In this document: piece after piece, positions 21,665 through 35,791 of the stretch
How the letters are laid out: each line of letters opens with the position of its first letter
Numbering within the stretch: the stretch's first letter is position 1
Source of the DNA: Tsukamurella ocularis
GTDB taxonomy: Bacteria > Actinomycetota > Actinomycetes > Mycobacteriales > Mycobacteriaceae
Direction of reading: 5' to 3'
NCBI RefSeq assembly: GCF_024807615.1
Contig: NZ_JANUCJ010000002.1
Coordinates: 992,001-1,056,000 of the forward strand
Length of the DNA stretch: 64,000 bases
Notes under the pieces: model-generated
What the model was told of the DNA's origin: nothing
Seen by the model: only the letters and a program-made list of their open reading frames with translations
Databases searched by the model: none
Made by a program: the position numbers and the translations under genes

Positions 21665-21683
21665 AATGGCGAGGCTAACCTAA
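21665..21683 (-). promoter_or_regulatory. IdeR/DtxR-like iron box upstream of doxX
   Basis: The 19-mer contains GAGGCTAACCTAA and matches 15 of 19 positions of the degenerate DtxR/IdeR consensus; the right half-site is complete. It lies 15 bp before the doxX start codon. Fe2+-loaded IdeR bound here would block transcription of doxX and the coupled PPOX gene. Confidence 0.6.
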
Positions 21684-26421: not shown

Positions 26422-26440
26422 TAAGGTTAGCCTTACCATT
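26422..26440 (+). promoter_or_regulatory. IdeR/DtxR-like iron box upstream of the GltB-like operon
   Basis: TAAGGTTAGCCTTACCATT matches 17 of 19 positions of the degenerate DtxR/IdeR consensus and contains the dyad TAAGG-TTAG-CCTTA. It is 38 bp upstream of the TTG start of the glutamate-synthase-like gene. It predicts iron-dependent repression of the three-gene operon. Confidence 0.68.
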
Positions 26441-26478
26441 CTTCTTTCAGGTACCGCGCCCCGAGTGAGAGTGATCCG

Positions 26479-29400
26479 TTGAACGAACCACGCACCGGTC
26501 TGTACGACCCCACCCGGGAGTCGAGCGCCTGCGGCGTCGGCTTCATCACCCGCAAGGACGGCACCCAGCACCACGACGTGATCGCCTACGGCGAGCACGC
26601 GCTGTGCGCCATCCCCCACCGCGGCGGCATGTCCGCGGAGGGCGTGGGCGACGGGGCCGGCGTCAACGTGGACCTGTCCGTGGAGTTCTTCGGCGCGATC
26701 ACGGGTCGCGAGCTGCAGCGTGGTCGGTTCGGCGTCGCCAACCTCTTCCTGCCCTCCGCCCCGCAGCAGGGACCGACCGCGCGGGCACTCGTCCGCGCGA
26801 CCCTCGCCGACCACGGCTTCGAGGTGATCACCGAGCGCGATGTCCCCGTCGACACCACCGCGATCCGTCCCGCCGCGCTCCGGTATCAGCTCCCCATCAC
26901 GCAGTGGGTGTTCACGGCACCGTCGGGCATCCCGAGGATCGACGTGGACCGCGCCGCGAACGCGGCCCTCCTCGCGATCGAGCAGATCGCTTACGGCACG
27001 CCGGATCTCGCCGGCCTGTACCCGCTGTCACTGAGCACGCGCACCCAGACCCTCAAGGGGCGACTCAACGCCGATGAGGTGATCCGCTACTTCACCGACC
27101 TCGCGGACCCGCGGCACTCGGTGTGCACCTTGTACTTCCACACGCGGTTCTCCACCAACACCGAGCCGCATCCGTCGATGGCCCAGCCGTTCCGACTGAT
27201 GGCGCACAACGGCGAGCTCAACACCGACCGCAAGAACCGCCTCGCCGACGACGCCGTCGCCCGCGCCAAGGCGCGCACCATCGTCCGTCCGCCCGGCCAG
27301 TCGGACTCGAGCCGGCTCGACCAGTCGCTGCAGAGCAGGGTCTTCGACGACGGCCTGGGCCTGGTCGAGGCGGTCGTCTCGCTCATGCCGCCAGCGTGGG
27401 AGAACGACGGCACTGTGCCGCAACCGGTCCGGGACATGCTCGAATACTTCTCCCTCGGCGAGGAGAAGAACGACGGCCCGGCCGCGCTCATCTTCTCCGA
27501 CGGTGACGTGGTCGGCGCGCGCCTGGACCGGCTCGGCCTGCGCCCGCTGCGCACCGTCGAAACGGCGGAGTACGTCGTCGTCGCCTCGGAGGCCGGTCAG
27601 GTCCCGTTCCCCGCGGACTCGGTCATCCACCGCGGGCGCATCGAGGCCGGGGGCATGCTGTACGTGGACCACCGGGCCGGCGACGGTCGGGTCCGCCGCA
27701 CGCGCGAAGCACTCGACCTGCTGGCCGCGCGCCGCGACTACGCCGCGCTCCTCGGGGAGGCCCGGGTGAACCTCGCCGACATAGCGCCGCCACCGATCCA
27801 GCGCGATGCCGGGACCCTCGGGTACCCGGGCGATCTCAGCCTGCACGGCCGGTACGTCGCCTACTCGCTCAACCAGGAGAGCTTCCGGTTCCTGCTCGAC
27901 CCGATGCTGGCCGACGGCGCGGAGCGGATCTCGGCGATGGGCTACGGCAACGCGATCAACGCCCTCTCGGATCACGAGGGCGGCATGGCGAAGTACTTCT
28001 CCCAGCGCTTCGCGCAGGTGACGAACCCGCCGCTGGACTCGATCCGCGAGGCCGACGCGATGAGTATGCGGGTGGCTCTGGGTAACGCGGAACACGGCCA
28101 CCGCGCCCCGCAGATCGTGATCGACTCGCCGATCCTCAGTCACCTGGAGATGGTGAAACTCCGCGACCAGCAGGTGACACCGGTCCAGCACTTCGACCTG
28201 CTGTACCACCCCGACACCGACTCGGCGGCCAACGCCGACGCCGTGCTCGCGGCCGTCGAGCGGCTGTGCGACGACGTCGAGGCCTTCGCCCGCGACGGCG
28301 GCGGCATCGCCGTGCTGACCGACCGCGGCGTCTCCACGTCGCGCGCGCCTCTCCCCCTCTTACTCGCGCTCGCCGCCGTGGACGTCCGGCTCACCGAGAC
28401 GGGGCTGCGCCTGCGACTCTCGCTCCTCGCCGAGAGCGGCCAGCTACCGTCCTCGCACCACATCGCCTCGGCGCTGGGATTCGGTGCATCCGCGGTGTAC
28501 TCCCTCTCGGCGCGGCTACGGGCAGAGGAGCGGTTCCCGGCGGATGCGGCGCCCGCCGGTGAGCTCACCGACACCGACCGCGCCTTCGACCGGTTCCGCA
28601 AGGCGGCGGAGAAGTCGCTCGCCAAGACGATGGGCCGCGTGGGCCTGTGCACGGCGGAGTCGTACATCGGCGGCCAGTTCTTTGAGCCCAACTACCTGGA
28701 TACGCGGGATCCGGTGCTGTCCCGCTACTTCCCGCACCTGGACGCTCCCGTCGGGGGCGTCGGCTTCGCGCGGATCGCGGAGGCGAACTCCCACTGGCAC
28801 GAGCGGGCGGCCTCCGTGGCGGAGGAGCGCGACGTGCCGCTGCTGGGCCTGTTCAAGGAGCGCTCCGACGGTGCCGGGCACTCCTACGGCATCAACGCCG
28901 TCCGCGGCTTCACCCGGATGGCCGAGGAGCCCCTGGCTCTGACCGGACCCGACGGCATCGGCTCCACGTCGCTGCGCCTGCTCACGCTCTCGAAGCTCGA
29001 CGACGCCTTCGGGCTCGACGACGCCGCCTACCGCAACAGCGGCTTCAAGGCGCTACTACCGCGCCAGATCGACGGCTTCGAGATCACCGACGGCTACCGC
29101 GAATTCCTCGCCGCCACCCTGGTCGAGCGCGAGCGCCGCCCGTCCGCGCTGCGCGACGTGCTCGCGCTGCCCGCCGACGTCACGATGCTCACGACGGCAC
29201 AGGAGTTCCATCGCGAGCTGGCGCGATTCTCGTTGGAGGGCAACGCCAGCCTGCCCACCCGCGGCCTGACCGTCGACACCGCGCCGGACGGCCGGTTCGT
29301 CGTGCGCCTCACCGACGCTCCGGAACACGAGACGCACACGGCCTACGCAGGGTTCGCCGAGTACCTCCGAGAGCTGTTCGCGGACGAGGTGACGGTCGAG

Positions 29401-32010
29401 GCGAGCCCCGATGCCGGCGTCGTGATCGCGGCCACCGGGCGGGCCCGCGCCTACCTGACGCTGCTGTGCACCGCGCCCCGCTCGCTGCGACTCGACGATG
29501 TGCAGCCCGCACACGAGATCACGCGCACGCTGGCCTCCGGCGCGATGAGCCACGGTGCCCTCGTCGCCACCGCGCACGAGGCCGTGGCGCACGGCACCAA
29601 CATGGTCGGGGGCATGTCGAACTGCGGCGAGGGCGGCGAGCACCGCACGCGGTACGGCACGATCCGCGGCTCGCGGATCAAGCAGTTCGCGTCGGGCCGG
29701 TTCGGCATCTGGTCCGGGTACCTCGCGGATCCGATGCTCGAGGAGCTCGAGATCAAGATCGGCCAGGGCGCCAAGCCCGGCGAGGGCGGGCAGCTGCCGG
29801 GGCCGAAGGTCACCGTCGACATCGCGGCGGCCCGCGGCGGCACCCCCGGCATCGAGCTGATCTCTCCCCCACCGCATCACGACACCTACTCGATCGAGGA
29901 CCTCGCGCAGCTCATCCACGACTGCGAGGCGGCCCGCGTGCGCGTGATCGTCAAACTCGTCTCCTCCGAGGGCATCGGGACGATCGCGGTCGGCGTCGCG
30001 AAGGCCGGCGCCGACGTCATCAACGTGGCCGGCAACACCGGCGGGACCGGTGCGGCGGCGGTGACCAGCCTCAAGTACGCGGGACGCTCCGCAGAGATCG
30101 GCGTGGCGGAGGTGCATCAGGCGCTGGTCGCGAACGGCCTGCGCGACAAGGTGACCCTGCGGTGTTCGGGCGCGCACCAGACCGGCGGCGACGTCGTGGT
30201 CTCCGCGCTGCTCGGCGGCGACTCGTTCGAGTTCGGGACGACCGCGCTGATGATGCTCAAGTGCGTCATGGCCAAGAACTGCAACCTCAAGTGCCCGGCC
30301 GGCCTCACGACGAATCCCGAGGTCTTCGACGGGGATCCGCGCGCGCTCGCGCAGTACCTGCTGAACATCGCGCACGACGTCCGCACGCTGCTCGCGCGAC
30401 TCGGCCTGCGGTCGCTGCGCGAGGCGCGCGGGCGCACCGATCTCCTTCAGCTGCTAGAACATCCCGCGGCCGTCGGCCACCTCGACGTGCGCGCGATGCT
30501 GCACGCGCCCGCGCCGCGGACCGTCGACGATCCCGTGTACCTCGAGAAGGACTACGCGGTGGACGACCGCCTCCTCGCGGAGGTCCGGGACCGGCTGCTT
30601 GACGGCGGCGCGGAGTCGATCACCGTCGACGACGTGGCGCTCGCGAACCCGAACAAGTCGGTGGGCGGCCAGCTCGCCGTCGACCTGGAACGCCTGCTCA
30701 ACCACCCCGCCGCGGACCAGCGCGGGGCGTTCACGGGCGTGACAGTGCCCGACGGACACCCCGCGGTGCTCACCGACGAGCGCGGACGCCGCTTCCTCGC
30801 CGACGGTGCCGTCGTCGTCCGTTCGCACGGCAGCGCCGGACAATCCTTCGGCGTCTTCTGCACCGACGGGATGGACTTGCGGCACACCGGAACCGCCAAC
30901 GACGGTGTCGCGAAGAGCCAGTGCGGCGGCCGCGTCGTGGTCCGCTCCCCCGGTGGTGGCGGCGCCGACGCCGGTGCCAACGTCCTGATCGGCAACTTCG
31001 CGCTCTTCGGTGCGACGGGCGGCCGCACCTTCGTGCAGGGCGAGGCGGGCGACCGCTTCGCCGTGCGGAACTCGGGCGCCACCGCCGTCGTCGAGGGGGT
31101 CGGCGAGTACTGCTGCGAGTACATGACCGGCGGCGCCGTGCTCAACCTCGGCGGCTTCGGCAAGGGCCTGGGCAACGGCATGAGCGGCGGGTTCGTCTAC
31201 CAGTACGACCCCGAGGGCCGGATCGCCGGCGCGGCGAGCTCGTCGCTGCATGTCGAGACCCTCGTCGGCCCCCACACCCCGCCCTTCCACGAGGTCGCGG
31301 TGCGGACAATGCTCGCCTGGCACGCGGAGGCGACCGGATCGCCGCTCGCCGCACGCCTCCTCGCGGACTGGGCTGGCACCCGCGAGAACATCGTCGTCGG
31401 CACACCCCTCGCGCTGATGCGCTATCAGGACGCCGACCACATCTGGGCTGCGCACGGCCGCAAGGAGCTGCTCGACGAGCTGGCGAGCTCGGTCGCCGCG
31501 GACCGCCTGCGGGAGTTCAAGCGCTCGCTGCGCGCGGGTACACCCGTCGGCGGGGGCTCGGCACCGCGGTTCGGCGACACCCGTTCCCCGCACGCCTTCT
31601 CCCTGCTCTCGTCGTTCACGGTCTTGTCGCTCGCACAGGAAGTGGCCGCCGAACGCGTGCCGGGCGCGACGGGGCACGACGACCCGCGGGTGTCCGCGCG
31701 TGCACGGAACCTGGTGCTCACCGAGGACTTCGCAGTCCGGCAACGGATCACGAGGTACCTGCGTGCCAGGCTCGACAACTTCGAGGACGCGGAGCTCGCG
31801 GCACTCATCGCGACGAAGCGCCTGGGCGACTACACCACCTCACTCGAGGAGCGGAACGTTCTGAGCATGGACGCCCCTGGCACGTACGGCTGGATCCTGC
31901 ACCACCGCGCTCGCAATGCCGCGGCCCTCGACGGCGCCGCCGTCAACGCCATGCTGGTCGAGGGCGCGATGCCGGACCTGGTGCGATTCGCGAAGGAGAC
32001 GCTGGCATGA
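26479..32010 (+). CDS. Glutamate-synthase-like large protein with C-terminal extension
   Basis: An 1843-residue protein with the full GltB layout. A class II glutamine amidotransferase comes first (nucleophile Cys18 after a 17-residue propeptide, in SSACGVGF), then the central domain, the FMN barrel (from about 1010; SGAMSHGALVATAHEA, IELISPPPHHD) and the glycine-rich beta-helix (from about 1400). GltB proteins are usually near 1500 residues. This one has an enlarged middle and a C-terminal extension of about 190 residues I do not recognise. The iron-sulfur cysteines are Cys1262, Cys1268 and Cys1272 (C-x5-C-x3-C), one residue shorter than the usual C-x5-C-x4-C. TTG at 26479 is the only start that keeps the amidotransferase. 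No GltD follows; a diflavin reductase does. Confidence 0.85.
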   Translation: MNEPRTGLYDPTRESSACGVGFITRKDGTQHHDVIAYGEHALCAIPHRGGMSAEGVGDGAGVNVDLSVEFFGAITGRELQRGRFGVANLFLPSAPQQGPTARALVRATLADHGFEVITERDVPVDTTAIRPAALRYQLPITQWVFTAPSGIPRIDVDRAANAALLAIEQIAYGTPDLAGLYPLSLSTRTQTLKGRLNADEVIRYFTDLADPRHSVCTLYFHTRFSTNTEPHPSMAQPFRLMAHNGELNTDRKNRLADDAVARAKARTIVRPPGQSDSSRLDQSLQSRVFDDGLGLVEAVVSLMPPAWENDGTVPQPVRDMLEYFSLGEEKNDGPAALIFSDGDVVGARLDRLGLRPLRTVETAEYVVVASEAGQVPFPADSVIHRGRIEAGGMLYVDHRAGDGRVRRTREALDLLAARRDYAALLGEARVNLADIAPPPIQRDAGTLGYPGDLSLHGRYVAYSLNQESFRFLLDPMLADGAERISAMGYGNAINALSDHEGGMAKYFSQRFAQVTNPPLDSIREADAMSMRVALGNAEHGHRAPQIVIDSPILSHLEMVKLRDQQVTPVQHFDLLYHPDTDSAANADAVLAAVERLCDDVEAFARDGGGIAVLTDRGVSTSRAPLPLLLALAAVDVRLTETGLRLRLSLLAESGQLPSSHHIASALGFGASAVYSLSARLRAEERFPADAAPAGELTDTDRAFDRFRKAAEKSLAKTMGRVGLCTAESYIGGQFFEPNYLDTRDPVLSRYFPHLDAPVGGVGFARIAEANSHWHERAASVAEERDVPLLGLFKERSDGAGHSYGINAVRGFTRMAEEPLALTGPDGIGSTSLRLLTLSKLDDAFGLDDAAYRNSGFKALLPRQIDGFEITDGYREFLAATLVERERRPSALRDVLALPADVTMLTTAQEFHRELARFSLEGNASLPTRGLTVDTAPDGRFVVRLTDAPEHETHTAYAGFAEYLRELFADEVTVEASPDAGVVIAATGRARAYLTLLCTAPRSLRLDDVQPAHEITRTLASGAMSHGALVATAHEAVAHGTNMVGGMSNCGEGGEHRTRYGTIRGSRIKQFASGRFGIWSGYLADPMLEELEIKIGQGAKPGEGGQLPGPKVTVDIAAARGGTPGIELISPPPHHDTYSIEDLAQLIHDCEAARVRVIVKLVSSEGIGTIAVGVAKAGADVINVAGNTGGTGAAAVTSLKYAGRSAEIGVAEVHQALVANGLRDKVTLRCSGAHQTGGDVVVSALLGGDSFEFGTTALMMLKCVMAKNCNLKCPAGLTTNPEVFDGDPRALAQYLLNIAHDVRTLLARLGLRSLREARGRTDLLQLLEHPAAVGHLDVRAMLHAPAPRTVDDPVYLEKDYAVDDRLLAEVRDRLLDGGAESITVDDVALANPNKSVGGQLAVDLERLLNHPAADQRGAFTGVTVPDGHPAVLTDERGRRFLADGAVVVRSHGSAGQSFGVFCTDGMDLRHTGTANDGVAKSQCGGRVVVRSPGGGGADAGANVLIGNFALFGATGGRTFVQGEAGDRFAVRNSGATAVVEGVGEYCCEYMTGGAVLNLGGFGKGLGNGMSGGFVYQYDPEGRIAGAASSSLHVETLVGPHTPPFHEVAVRTMLAWHAEATGSPLAARLLADWAGTRENIVVGTPLALMRYQDADHIWAAHGRKELLDELASSVAADRLREFKRSLRAGTPVGGGSAPRFGDTRSPHAFSLLSSFTVLSLAQEVAAERVPGATGHDDPRVSARARNLVLTEDFAVRQRITRYLRARLDNFEDAELAALIATKRLGDYTTSLEERNVLSMDAPGTYGWILHHRARNAAALDGAAVNAMLVEGAMPDLVRFAKETLA

Positions 32011-33788
32011 GCGCCCCCACCTATGTCCTCCCCGAGGCGGATTCGTCCGCTCTCATCGACGTCTTCACCGGTGACCAGCGGGCATGGCTGTCCGGATTCC
32101 TGGCGGGCCTGGCAGCGGTGCAGGCCGAGCAGGCGGTCACCGCGACCGCCGCCACGCTGCACGCGACCGTGCTCTACGGAACGCAGACCGGGAACAGCGA
32201 GGAGCTCGCGGAACGGCTGGTCGGGTTGCTGCGGGAGAACGGCCTCGGGGCAGACCTCGCCGCACTCGACGACGCCGACCCCGACCGGCTGGCGGCCGCC
32301 TCACATCTACTGGTGGTCACGTCCACCTACGGCGAGGGAGAGATGCCCGACAACGCGGAGCTCTTCTGGGAGGCGCTGTCCGCCGACGCCGCCCCGCGCC
32401 TGGAGCACCTCCAGTTCTCGGTACTCGCGCTGGGCGACAGCGGCTACGAGGGCTTCTGCCGGGCCGGGCAGATCATCGACACCCGGCTCGAACAGCTCGG
32501 CGCCGCGCGCCTCGCCCCGCGGGTGGACTGCGACGTCGACTTCGAGGAGCCCGCGTCGGCGTGGCTCGCCGAGGTCGTCTCCCGGCTGCGGGCGGTCGCC
32601 GATCACCTGGATCCCGCCGACGCCGCCGCAGTACCCGTCGCTGCCGCGCCCGCGACACCGTCGAAGCCGAAGTCACGATGGAACAAGAAGAACCCGTTCC
32701 CCTCCCGGCTCGTGGAGAACCGCCTGCTCTCCGGGGCAGGGAGTGCGAAGGAGATCCGGCACCTCGAGTTCGACCTCGCCGACAGCAGTATCGAGTACGC
32801 GGCTGGCGACGCCCTGAACGTGATGCCGCGCAACGCTCCGGCACTCGTGGACGCCGTGCTCGCTGCGCTCGATACCGTGCCGGACACCGACATCGACGGC
32901 GCGCCGCTTGTGGCGCGACTGACCACCGACTGGGAGATCTCGACACCGTCGAAGGACCTGCTCAAGACACTCGCCGAGCGCGCTCCCTTATCCGAACTCG
33001 CCGCGGTCCTCGCGCGCGAAGAGCGGGAGACGCTGGACGCGTGGCTGTGGGGGCGCGACGTCCTCGACCTCCTGCACGCGTGCGAGGGCGCGCACATCGA
33101 AGCCGCGGAGCTCCCGGACCTGCTGCGGCCCCTGCAGCCGCGGGCGTACTCGATCTCGTCGAGCCCGCTGGCCAGCCCCGACCGCATCCACCTGACGGTG
33201 GCGGCGGTGCGGCACGGCGCCGAGGCGGGACGCGAACACCAGGGCGTGTGCTCGACCTTCCTCGCCGACCGCTGCACCGAGGCGGACACCGCCGGGATCT
33301 CGCTGCAGCCCAACGCAGCCTTCCGCGTCCCGTCTGACCCCGACCGGCCGATGATCATGGTCGGCCCCGGCACGGGTATCGCCCCGTTCCGTGCGTTCCT
33401 GCACGAACGTGCCGCCTCGTCGGCGACCGGGCGGAACTGGTTGCTGTTCGGCGACCAGCACCGGGCGAGCGATTTCATCTACGCAGACGAGCTCGCGGGA
33501 TTCACCGAGTCGGGCGTCCTGCACCGTCTCGATCTGGCCTTCTCGCGCGACCAGGCGGAGAAGATCTACGTGCAGACGCGGATGATCGAGGCAGCGAGCG
33601 AGCTCTACGCCTGGCTCGAGGACGGCGGCCACTTCTATGTGTGCGGCGACGCCTCGCGCATGGCCAAGGACGTGGACCGGGCGCTGCGCGAGGTGATCGC
33701 CGGGCAGCGCGGCCGCGGCGCGGACGACGCCGACGAATACGTCGCGACCCTCAAGCGGGAGAAGCGCTACGTGCGGGACGTGTACTGA
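32007..33788 (+). CDS. CysJ-like diflavin NADPH reductase
   Basis: A 593-residue FMN/FAD/NADPH reductase. The flavodoxin domain (about 52-195) has LYGTQTGNSEELAERL, TSTYGEGEMPDN and LALGDSGYEGFC. The FAD domain has RAYSISSSPL and GVCSTFL, the NADPH domain has MVGPGTGIAPFRAFL, and the C-terminus ends KRYVRDVY, very like sulfite reductase flavoprotein CysJ. Such proteins pass electrons from NADPH through FAD and FMN to a partner. No sulfite reductase hemoprotein is nearby; instead the ATG overlaps the stop of the GltB-like gene and the stop overlaps the HemS-like start. I infer that it reduces the GltB-like protein, the heme protein, or both. Confidence 0.88.
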   Translation: MSAPTYVLPEADSSALIDVFTGDQRAWLSGFLAGLAAVQAEQAVTATAATLHATVLYGTQTGNSEELAERLVGLLRENGLGADLAALDDADPDRLAAASHLLVVTSTYGEGEMPDNAELFWEALSADAAPRLEHLQFSVLALGDSGYEGFCRAGQIIDTRLEQLGAARLAPRVDCDVDFEEPASAWLAEVVSRLRAVADHLDPADAAAVPVAAAPATPSKPKSRWNKKNPFPSRLVENRLLSGAGSAKEIRHLEFDLADSSIEYAAGDALNVMPRNAPALVDAVLAALDTVPDTDIDGAPLVARLTTDWEISTPSKDLLKTLAERAPLSELAAVLAREERETLDAWLWGRDVLDLLHACEGAHIEAAELPDLLRPLQPRAYSISSSPLASPDRIHLTVAAVRHGAEAGREHQGVCSTFLADRCTEADTAGISLQPNAAFRVPSDPDRPMIMVGPGTGIAPFRAFLHERAASSATGRNWLLFGDQHRASDFIYADELAGFTESGVLHRLDLAFSRDQAEKIYVQTRMIEAASELYAWLEDGGHFYVCGDASRMAKDVDRALREVIAGQRGRGADDADEYVATLKREKRYVRDVY

Positions 33789-34717
33789 TGCGGCCCGCGT
33801 CCTGCCCCGGCTGCGGCTGCGGGCGCTGCCCGCTGCAGCGGGCCCGAGGTTGCGCAACTGTCGAGGGCGCGACGGCCATGGACGTCGCTCGTGCCCTTCC
33901 TCTTCTCGATCAGGCCGTGGCGGTCACGGACTCGATGGTCGCAACTCTGGCCCACGAGGGACGGTACTCGCCGCCGACGCAGCCTGGTGATCCGTTCACC
34001 GTGGTCCCCGGGCGGATCGCGCTCCGGATCGCGCCCGACCGTGTGGCCGGCGCGGTCACCGACGACGATGCTCCCGGCGGCCCGGCCGACGCGAGCATGG
34101 TCGGGCTGGTCGACCGGCGCGGCGGAGCGCTGCATCGCACCTTCGTCACCGCGGAGCCGGATCGGATGGTGGTGCGCGCCCTCGGACATCTCTCGCCCAC
34201 GGATCAGCACCGCGAAGTCCTGTTCCAGGTGAGCGCGGGCGGGCGCCCCGAGCGGGCGACGAGGGATCCGAGTGCGCACCCCGTCGATGCGATCCTCGCC
34301 GACGAAGACGCACGACGGGTGCGCGGGCTGTGTGCGCTCGACGAACGACGGTACTGCCAGATCCCATCGTCGCGCATCGCCCAGGTGCTCGAATTCCTCT
34401 GCGATACCGGCACTCCGGTGGGAATCGCCGTCTTCGGCGGCGGCATCGCACAAGCCTGCAGCGGACGGATCGAGGCGGTCCTCCCCGAGGGCCCGCGTCT
34501 GCTCACCGGCTTTCACAACGCGGCCGTCGACATCGACCTCGCCCGCGTCGACAACTGCGCCGTCGTCCGCCCCGCCGAAGACGAGCACGCCGCGGCGATC
34601 GAGCTCTACGACGCGAGCGGGGCCTGCTGCGCGCTCCTCACCCAGTTCGACGGTGCCGACAGGGCGGTCCGTCTCGACTGGGAAGCAGCCGCGGCATCCC
34701 TGTGCGAAGTCATGTAG
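33788..34717 (+). CDS. HemS/HmuS-like heme-handling protein with Cys-rich N-terminus
   Basis: A 309-residue protein with two HemS/ChuS-like halves. The first contains SMVGLVDRRGGALHRTFVTA near residue 100. The second contains GIAVFGGGIAQACSGRIEAV, then VDNCAVVRPAEDEH and IELYDASGACCALL near the C-terminus, the pattern of hemin-degrading or heme-trafficking proteins. Ahead of this is a short cysteine cluster (Cys6, 9, 11, 14 and 21) that I have not seen in HemS and that might bind metal. ATG at 33788 overlaps the reductase stop (ATGA), the reason for choosing it; an internal ATG at residue 31 would drop the cysteines. Likely role: taking iron from heme, with electrons from the upstream reductase (inference). 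Confidence 0.68.
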   Translation: MRPASCPGCGCGRCPLQRARGCATVEGATAMDVARALPLLDQAVAVTDSMVATLAHEGRYSPPTQPGDPFTVVPGRIALRIAPDRVAGAVTDDDAPGGPADASMVGLVDRRGGALHRTFVTAEPDRMVVRALGHLSPTDQHREVLFQVSAGGRPERATRDPSAHPVDAILADEDARRVRGLCALDERRYCQIPSSRIAQVLEFLCDTGTPVGIAVFGGGIAQACSGRIEAVLPEGPRLLTGFHNAAVDIDLARVDNCAVVRPAEDEHAAAIELYDASGACCALLTQFDGADRAVRLDWEAAAASLCEVM

Positions 34718-34759: not shown

Positions 34760-35791
34760 ATGGACGCATCCATCAATCGGCGCACCGCACTCCGGCTGGG
34801 ATTCACCTCGCTCGCCACCGTGGCCGGTGCGACGCTCGTCGCCGCGTGCGGCACCGGGGGCGACGAAGGCTCCGCCCCCAGTAGTGCCGCCGCGGGCGCC
34901 GAACCGAGCACCTTCCCGGTTACGATCCCGCACCAGCACGGCACGACCACCCTGACCACGCCGCCGCAGCGGGTTGCGGTCGTGGGCATCGGTGACCAGG
35001 ATTCGCTCCTGGCGCTGGGGATCACGCCCGTCCTCGTACCCATGTGGACCGGCTCGACGGATACCGGCGTCGGGCGGTGGTCCCAGGATCTGGTGCACGG
35101 CGCGCCGATACCGCTCCCGAACGCGACGGGCGCGTTCTCGCTCGAGCAGGTCGCGGCGGCGCGCCCGGATCTGATCCTGGCGGTGAACAACGCCATCACC
35201 GCGGAGCGCTACCAGCAGCTGAGCGCTATCGCCCCGACGGTGCTGCATGCGGCCGGCCAGACGGACTGGGCCCTCCCCTGGCAGGACGTGACACGCCGGG
35301 TGGGTCAAGCGGTGGGCAGGCCTCAGCGGGCGGAGGACCTGATCGCCGGCGCGGAGGCCACCGTCGCGCGGGCCAAGGTGGCGAACCCGGCCTTGGCGGG
35401 GAAGACCGCGGTTCTCGTGATCCGGTGGAAGGACGGCAAACTGCGCGCCTTCGGTCCCGACGCCGCGCGGTTCCAGATCCTCCGCGGCTTGGGCTTCACC
35501 CCACCCGCCGCCCTCGCAGGCCGGTTCGCGGGCGGCGCGCTCAACACCGAACTCTCCGCCGAGAACTTCCACCTCCTCGACGCCGACGTCCTCGTCTTCG
35601 ACAACTGGGAGCGCGACCGGGCGCAGGTGGAGGGCGAACCTGCGTTCGCCTCCCTTCCCGTCGTCGCGCAGAAGCGGCTCGTCGGGCTGGATCCCGTCGT
35701 CAGCGACGCCCTCTCGATGCCGAACCCGGTGACCATCCCCTACGTGACGAACGACATCGTCGGCCGGCTCGCCGCCGTCCTCACGCGCTGA
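34760..35791 (+). CDS. Siderophore-binding lipoprotein of an iron ABC transporter
   Basis: A 343-residue periplasmic-binding-type lipoprotein of the FecB/FepB class. The N-terminus has an arginine pair (NRRTALRL, Tat-like) and a lipobox ending at Cys30 (VAAC). The binding fold shows RVAVVGIGDQDSLLALGI near residue 72, LEQVAAARPDLILAVN near residue 130 and a TVLHAAGQTDWALPWQDV segment. These proteins capture ferric siderophores or heme and hand them to a FecCD-type permease, which is not encoded here, so it must work with a transporter elsewhere. An IdeR-like site precedes it. The 3' end overlaps the converging MFS gene by 11 bp. Confidence 0.86.
   Translation: MDASINRRTALRLGFTSLATVAGATLVAACGTGGDEGSAPSSAAAGAEPSTFPVTIPHQHGTTTLTTPPQRVAVVGIGDQDSLLALGITPVLVPMWTGSTDTGVGRWSQDLVHGAPIPLPNATGAFSLEQVAAARPDLILAVNNAITAERYQQLSAIAPTVLHAAGQTDWALPWQDVTRRVGQAVGRPQRAEDLIAGAEATVARAKVANPALAGKTAVLVIRWKDGKLRAFGPDAARFQILRGLGFTPPAALAGRFAGGALNTELSAENFHLLDADVLVFDNWERDRAQVEGEPAFASLPVVAQKRLVGLDPVVSDALSMPNPVTIPYVTNDIVGRLAAVLTR

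Follow-up and report, generated by a model that had tools for sequence, protein, structure and literature searches.

The window analyzed here, a stretch of 64,000 nucleotides of the Tsukamurella ocularis genome (contig NZ_JANUCJ010000002.1, positions 992,001 to 1,056,000 of the forward strand), carries an operon downstream of a tRNA-His gene in which a gene for a protein resembling GltB, the large subunit of glutamate synthase (GOGAT, or GltS), is followed by genes for a CysJ-like diflavin reductase and a HemS-like protein. An initial annotation of the segment 26422..33788 had described three genes overlapping stop to start behind an IdeR-type iron box, and both overlaps were confirmed: the glt stop codon (32008–32010) lies within an ATGA formed with the diflavin start at 32007, and a TGATG at 33788 joins the end of the diflavin gene to the start of the HemS-like gene, whose end at 34717 is already beyond that segment. 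Taking the evidence below together, we consider it highly likely that the operon encodes an NADPH-glutamate synthase in which the CysJ-type diflavin protein replaces GltD, and which would serve as an IdeR-repressed isozyme in many actinobacteria and as the housekeeping enzyme in Pantoea and SAR92. The closest relative of the GltB-like protein was found in Tsukamurella sp. M9C (97% identical). A separate gltBD, for which the initial annotation had proposed to search, is present in the same genome, with a second GltB at C1:1199955-1204496 and a 488-amino-acid open reading frame (ORF) overlapping its end. In T. tyrosinosolvens, the counterpart of this separate gltBD is annotated as gltB and glutamate synthase subunit beta. 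NCBI lists the GltB-like and diflavin proteins of the pair under the names "glutamate synthase-related protein" and "sulfite reductase subunit alpha".

The GltB-like protein contains the Pfam domains PF00310, PF04898, PF01645, and PF01493. With 985.7 bits it remained below the cut-off of the NCBIfam model NF008730 (1047) for canonical GltB and, judged by its sequence, is a divergent relative rather than a canonical GltB equivalog. We compared 81 proteins of the family with each other and 32 of these with 16 usable canonical GltB proteins, one of which is a 1084-amino-acid piece. The catalytic cysteine (Cys18) was present in 79 of the 81 family rows, the other two being gaps due to start choice; RF and HNG were kept in all 81, and RFSTN and HNGE were present in the family rows displayed. 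For 2-oxoglutarate binding we took E903, K972, Q978, and R992 of the Synechocystis enzyme to be the ligands and transferred them via an alignment to 1llw. The corresponding residues E1051, K1099, and Q1105 were invariant in 81/81 rows and R1119 in 47/47, and Met487, which maps to A. brasilense Met479, was kept in the family as well. The three cysteines of the 3Fe-4S cluster were found in every family row as CX5CX3C, one residue shorter than the CX5CX4C of the canonical rows displayed, and the loop after the cluster is also shortened. Near the site of flavin mononucleotide (FMN), the PW of the canonical PWELG is replaced by SA, AA, or VA and DG by SG.

Two further regions distinguish the family from canonical GltB. 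The inserted domain comprises about 140 residues where the 16 canonical proteins have 29–35; it was modeled with local confidence and had no confident match in the PDB. The C-terminal extension, mostly absent from the same 16 proteins, was modeled as helices mostly at pLDDT 85–93 and had no match in Pfam.

Table 1. Coordinates of the operon and its features within the window.
Feature	Position	Strand	Remarks
DtxR/IdeR-type iron box TAAGGTTAGCCTTACCATT	26422..26440	+	upstream of the operon
GltB-like gene	26479..32010	+	TTG start, 1843 amino acids
GltB-like domain order			GATase_2 (Cys18), central domain, FMN/3Fe-4S synthase domain, GXGXG
Family-specific inserted domain	29056..29478	+	about residues 860-1000; alignment and model
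3Fe-4S motif CX5CX3C	30262..30294	+	C1262-C1268-C1272; 81/81 family rows
Family-specific helical C-terminal extension	31279..32007	+	about residues 1601-1843; model and alignment
CysJ-like diflavin reductase	32007..33788	+	ATG 32007, 593 amino acids
HemS/ChuX-like protein with N-terminal Cys residues	33788..34717	+	ATG 33788, 309 amino acids
Fe-siderophore ABC substrate-binding protein, FepB-like	34760..35791	+	downstream of the HemS-like gene

The diflavin reductase, for which the query in profile searches and tblastn ran from 32010 (one codon short of the ATG), matched PF00258, PF00667, and PF00175 only, i.e., an FMN-flavodoxin, a flavin adenine dinucleotide (FAD) and an NADPH domain in this order and no Fe-S domain. 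It shares this order with CysJ, and among solved chains the sulfite reductase flavoprotein 6efv is the nearest to it (E = 7e-119). It scored above the cut-off of NF004859 ("sulfite reductase subunit alpha") but below that of TIGR01931 for cysJ (596 vs. 668 bits), and unlike CysJ it sits behind a GltB-like gene and not behind a sulfite reductase. A search of the Tsukamurella genome placed the nearest PF03460 match about 37 kb from the operon diflavin gene, which on this sequence evidence appears to have no genomic link to a CysI hemoprotein. The genome encodes a second CysJ-like protein, distant from the first (46% identical) and contained in a frame of 1448 amino acids. With a nitrite/sulfite reductase match about 3.5 kb away, this second protein is probably part of nitrate assimilation.

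Conservation of the GltB-like/diflavin adjacency, the first check suggested by the initial annotation, was assessed in the best 80 of 393 confirmed relatives, which comprise 50 actinobacterial and 30 proteobacterial (alpha, beta, and gamma) loci. A diflavin gene was detected by tblastn directly downstream and on the same strand in 80/80, two of them cut by contig ends. The two genes shared the 4-base ATGA overlap in 48 of the 79 loci measured and were at most 20 bases apart in 74; in this count one locus had no ORF because of a contig end and two had mis-picked ORFs, and tblastn found the gene in all three. Distances in the GltB-like and diflavin trees were closely correlated (r = 0.94 for 40 diverse pairs out of 81, a value that no permutation out of 1000 attained, without correction for the species tree; one mis-picked diflavin ORF was excluded, r being 0.33 when it was included). 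The correlation held within actinobacteria (r = 0.95) and within proteobacteria (r = 0.88), and a single branch separates the two groups in the unrooted GltB-like tree. As far as tree distances go, this shows that the GltB-like and diflavin genes have travelled together.

The box TAAGGTTAGCCTTACCATT matches 17 of 19 positions of the degenerate DtxR/IdeR form TWAGGTWAGSCTWACCTWA, the count given by the initial annotation, but only 14 of 19 of the strict form TTAGGTTAGGCTAACCTAA; both forms are what we take to be the consensus. When the intergenic stretch was simulated 5000 times with a first-order Markov model, a score of 17 against the degenerate form was never reached (the best, 16, occurred once), and a score of 14 against the strict form was reached three times. 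The box is the only site of the window with at most three mismatches, and none of 100 shuffles contained one. The whole 4.3 Mb genome has two places with at most two mismatches, one of them the operon box, and a reversed-pattern control gave none. A chance origin of the box therefore seems unlikely. The other genomic site (C3:1009951) lies about 30 bases before an ORF that presumably encodes a DUF2470/HugZ-type heme-utilization protein. The second-best DtxR-like site of the window (21665-21683; 15/19 degenerate, 14/19 strict) precedes a short-chain dehydrogenase gene (21830) by about 150 bases.

Among the relatives, a box was counted when a site no more than 300 bases upstream matched 15/19 positions or more, and equal windows elsewhere in the same loci served as background. 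Outside Curtobacterium, 24 of 34 actinobacterial loci had a box, compared to 4 of 2316 background windows. Ten named actinobacterial genera carry it upstream of the pair: Tsukamurella, Streptomyces, Micropruina, Corynebacterium, Microbacterium, Pseudoclavibacter, Mycolicibacterium, Mycobacterium, Mycobacteroides, and Nocardia. Such conservation of a 19-bp palindromic box would place the operon in the IdeR/DtxR regulon of these bacteria. In the proteobacterial loci tested, neither the Fur nor the ICE pattern turned up consistently. Other upstream elements were seen: Curtobacterium loci, which lack the DtxR box, have a conserved GTAGCATCGCCTCACCGCA-like sequence at about -126. The inverted repeat GTCAG-N5-CTGAC precedes glt by about 55 bases in two Shinella loci and recurs imperfectly in two further loci, and a sequence related to it lies near -290 in Agrobacterium.

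GltD was searched for (E ≤ 1e-60) in 31 pair-bearing genomes out of the 80 loci. A match was obtained in 25, and none in Mycetocola reblochoni, a SAR92 bin, a Tepidamorphaceae bin, a Porticoccaceae bin, Pantoea ananatis LMG 2665, and Pantoea sp. A4. With E. coli GltB as query, these six genomes each returned a single full-length GltB, which is the pair locus, besides short FMN-domain matches in two. Mycetocola has no box upstream of the pair (best 11/19), as expected for a housekeeping role.

In two lineages the gene order tells where the pair is located. The SAR92 gene order is pilQ-aroK-aroB-pair-hemE, and in the Porticoccaceae bin the pair likewise has hemE (URO-D) behind it. Of the 12 best relatives in the taxonomic order of SAR92, 10 have gltB-gltD-hemE instead. 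Within this order, 55 of 56 genomes had a GltD match (9 of the 55 only 37–40% identical), the sole miss being the SAR92 genome. Pantoea LMG 2665 has mtgA-arcB-pair-sspB-sspA-rpsI-rplM-zapE, and E. coli has mtgA-elbB-arcB-yhcC-gltB-gltD, other genes, and then sspB-sspA-rpsI-rplM-zapE. Pantoea sp. A4 likewise has mtgA and arcB upstream of the pair; sspB was not found within its locus. Neither Pantoea locus gave a match to yhcC, so this gene, too, may have been lost when the pair took the place of gltBD. Of 40 genomes of the Pantoea family, 22 had a canonical-type GltB, one had the pair, and 17 had no match, 14 of these being no larger than 1.4 Mb. The pair thus occupies the normal gltBD locus in SAR92 and Pantoea.

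These data bear on whether the diflavin protein might serve another acceptor, such as a sulfite reductase or heme degradation, its adjacency being incidental and the GltB-like protein using ferredoxin or a GltD encoded elsewhere. The reductase is indeed CysJ-like, GltD is encoded in 25 of the 31 genomes, and ferredoxin-dependent glutamate synthase is a known donor type. Adjacency in all 80 loci together with the tree correlation, the six genomes in which no GltD was found, and the remoteness of any PF03460 match in the Tsukamurella genome, where the nearest one has the second CysJ-like gene about 3.5 kb away, make such an arrangement very unlikely.

A physiological indication comes from P. ananatis AJ13355. 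According to Kharchenko et al. (2025, PMC12364357), this strain has no close homologue of the E. coli GOGAT, its gltB product (PAJ_RS19710) is 64% identical to a GOGAT of A. tumefaciens, knockout of gltB leads to glutamate auxotrophy (citing their reference 19; the primary source is Hara 2012), and the glutamate dehydrogenase of P. ananatis is argued to run in the oxidative direction. In LMG 2665, the protein shares 68% identity with four pair-type proteins of Agrobacterium and 30–42% with GltB of E. coli and Bradyrhizobium; from this likeness and the published description, the AJ13355 gltB very probably encodes the same pair-type GltB. It would belong to the family of the GltB-like protein described here, and it is reported to be needed for glutamate prototrophy. 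It would differ in its control region, as judged from LMG 2665, where no DtxR, Fur, or ICE signal was found upstream of the pair, while the Tsukamurella operon has its iron box. The iron-sparing, flavin-fed synthase that the initial annotation had envisaged is hence supported by comparative evidence from adjacency, the trees, the box in ten genera, the occupied gltBD locus, and the reported auxotrophy of P. ananatis.

The third gene reached 30.1 bits with the HemS model (cut-off 24), its family profile matched HemS (2j0p) with E = 3e-37 over most of the length, and 24 of its 27 members had a PF05171 match (E ≤ 0.01). By these profile matches, which extend near the whole length of HemS/ChuS/PhuS (2j0p, 1u9t, 4imh), it belongs to the HemS sequence family. 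A homologue lies behind the pair in 26 of the 80 loci, the 30 proteobacterial ones accounting for 8 of these, and in Ketogulonicigenium. The initial annotation had called it a HemS-like heme protein; the family assignment stands, but the heme part is weakened by the column aligned with HemS His196, which we take to be the proximal heme ligand. This column holds histidine in 2/27 members, including the one of the window, and in 12/27 a histidine follows one residue later, so that the ligand does not appear to be conserved in the third-gene family. In a further difference from HemS/ChuS/PhuS, at least two cysteines are found within the first 30 residues in 25/27 members, for example as CxxxxxCxxC in mycobacteria, and the protein could bind a metal or an Fe-S cluster. 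Its role is perhaps in cluster or heme handling.

One might also read the whole operon as a heme- or iron-mobilizing system, in which the HemS-like protein binds heme, the flavin reductase frees iron, and the GltB-like protein has been recruited for a task other than glutamate synthesis. The third gene, where present, and the iron box would fit. As 54 of the 80 loci yielded no third gene after the pair while the diflavin gene follows the GltB-like gene in all, His196 is rarely retained, and the GOGAT residues are kept, we consider this reading extremely improbable, the least likely of those weighed here.

The gene following the HemS-like gene encodes a FepB-like protein (PF01497, 86.6 bits; 74 bits with the FepB model, below its cut-off of 205). 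It occupies this position in 2 of the 80 loci, both from Tsukamurella, and is probably accessory and local. In T. tyrosinosolvens, the third gene is followed not by a FepB-like gene but by putP on the opposite strand. On a Ketogulonicigenium plasmid, the pair, a HemS-like gene, an AraC regulator, and a siderophore uptake cluster stand in a row, and in Methylobacillus a TonB receptor gene lies just upstream of the pair. Five iron-transport queries had matches in at least 7 of the 80 loci, a lower bound because single sequences were used.

Such surroundings recall the alternative offered by the initial annotation, namely that the product of the complex is some other amino acid, for siderophores for instance; it would then be formed from a 2-oxo acid other than 2-oxoglutarate. 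The siderophore-transport genes adjoining the pair in Ketogulonicigenium and Tsukamurella, the transport matches in those other loci, the iron box, and the family-specific changes near FMN all agree with it. This alternative is disfavored because the presumed 2-oxoglutarate ligands are invariant and the pair is the sole GOGAT found in six genomes. The pair also occupies the gltBD locus in two lineages, the five transport queries remained without a match in 73 of the 80 loci, and P. ananatis reportedly needs its gltB for glutamate. A siderophore-directed product is thus very improbable, and glutamate remains the expected one.

How might the diflavin-dependent glutamate synthase work? A review states that NADPH readily reduces the 3Fe-4S cluster of GltS, that the 4Fe-4S clusters are only marginally reduced, and that the ferredoxin-dependent enzyme is monomeric and has no GltD; direct feeding of the 3Fe-4S cluster by the FMN of a diflavin protein is therefore plausible. 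NADPH would reduce FAD and then FMN on the reductase, single electrons would enter the large subunit at its [3Fe-4S] cluster and continue to its FMN, Cys18 would hydrolyze glutamine, the ammonia would be channeled to 2-oxoglutarate, and the reduced FMN would produce L-glutamate. The two proteins may form a physical complex, with the altered cluster loop and the two added domains as the putative docking site for the reductase. Counted from cluster types, the iron need would be about 3 Fe per pair compared to about 11. The iron-sparing idea of the initial annotation accordingly has to be narrowed: because the large subunit retains its 3Fe-4S cysteines, the enzyme would be iron-poor and not iron-free. 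At high iron, IdeR/DtxR would repress the operon in Tsukamurella and other actinobacteria, which would make it an iron-starvation isozyme of gltBD, and when iron is scarce the pair would let the cell go on assimilating nitrogen. In Pantoea, SAR92, and the other genomes in which no gltBD was found, the pair would be the housekeeping GOGAT. We regard it as likely, if slightly less so than the replacement of GltD itself, that this constitutes a third donor class of glutamate synthase (NADPH to CysJ-type diflavin to 3Fe-4S to FMN), next to the GltD- and the ferredoxin-dependent one, in which two domains dock the reductase. In this reading it acts as an IdeR-controlled isozyme in actinobacteria of ten or more genera, and in SAR92 and Pantoea it has taken over from gltBD in place.

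The likeness to known glutamate synthases is thus partial. With bacterial NADPH-GltBD (A. brasilense 6s6s/1ea0, B. subtilis 7mfm) the GltB-like protein shares the domain order, the catalytic cysteine, the 2-oxoglutarate ligands, the FMN site, and the three cluster cysteines, but it is 1843 instead of about 1500 residues long, has the CX5CX3C cluster motif and two extra domains, and is accompanied by an iron box and a diflavin partner in place of an adjacent GltD. The pair would work like NADPH-glutamate synthase, yet no GltD (beta) neighbor with two 4Fe-4S clusters, the defining feature of that enzyme, was recognized next to it. As in the ferredoxin-dependent enzyme (Synechocystis 1ofd/1llw), the catalytic fold is kept and the large subunit would need no GltD; here, the partner gene encodes a diflavin NADPH reductase and not a ferredoxin, and the domains are family-specific. 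The initial annotation knew of no described GltB/diflavin pair, and none was found in the literature searched; Hara 2012 could mention one.

Several observations weigh against our interpretation. The pair is rare, being found in 2 of 296 genomes of the phylum and 3 of 150 of the order, this genome included in both, and its family is thinly scattered. The DtxR box is missing from all 16 Curtobacterium and all 30 proteobacterial loci and from 10 of the 34 other actinobacterial loci; the one Curtobacterium genome tested has GltD and lacks the box, so the box rule is not general. The substitutions near the FMN site mean that kinetics or substrate could differ, and the structure model of 1144 residues was poor overall (pTM 0.51). 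Of the six genomes that gave no GltD match, three come from metagenome binning and could be incomplete. Every one of the six holds some glutamate dehydrogenase: SAR92 and the Porticoccaceae bin only the large NAD type, the Tepidamorphaceae bin the same plus one lower-scoring ELFV match, and Mycetocola reblochoni and both Pantoea genomes ELFV types. Finally, the identity to Agrobacterium stated for AJ13355 (64%) differs from that of LMG 2665 (68%).

Glutamate synthase is a main route by which nitrogen enters metabolism, and it ranks among the iron-rich enzymes of the cell. If our interpretation is right, the operon would provide central nitrogen assimilation with an isozyme that spares iron, much as flavodoxin does in place of ferredoxin, and the low-potential 4Fe-4S clusters of GltD would not be essential for GOGAT catalysis. 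It would also explain how P. ananatis synthesizes glutamate without a GOGAT of the E. coli type. The housekeeping glutamate supply of SAR92 and Pantoea would then run on an iron-poor enzyme, which would bear on the interplay of nitrogen and iron limitation in ocean bacteria such as SAR92.

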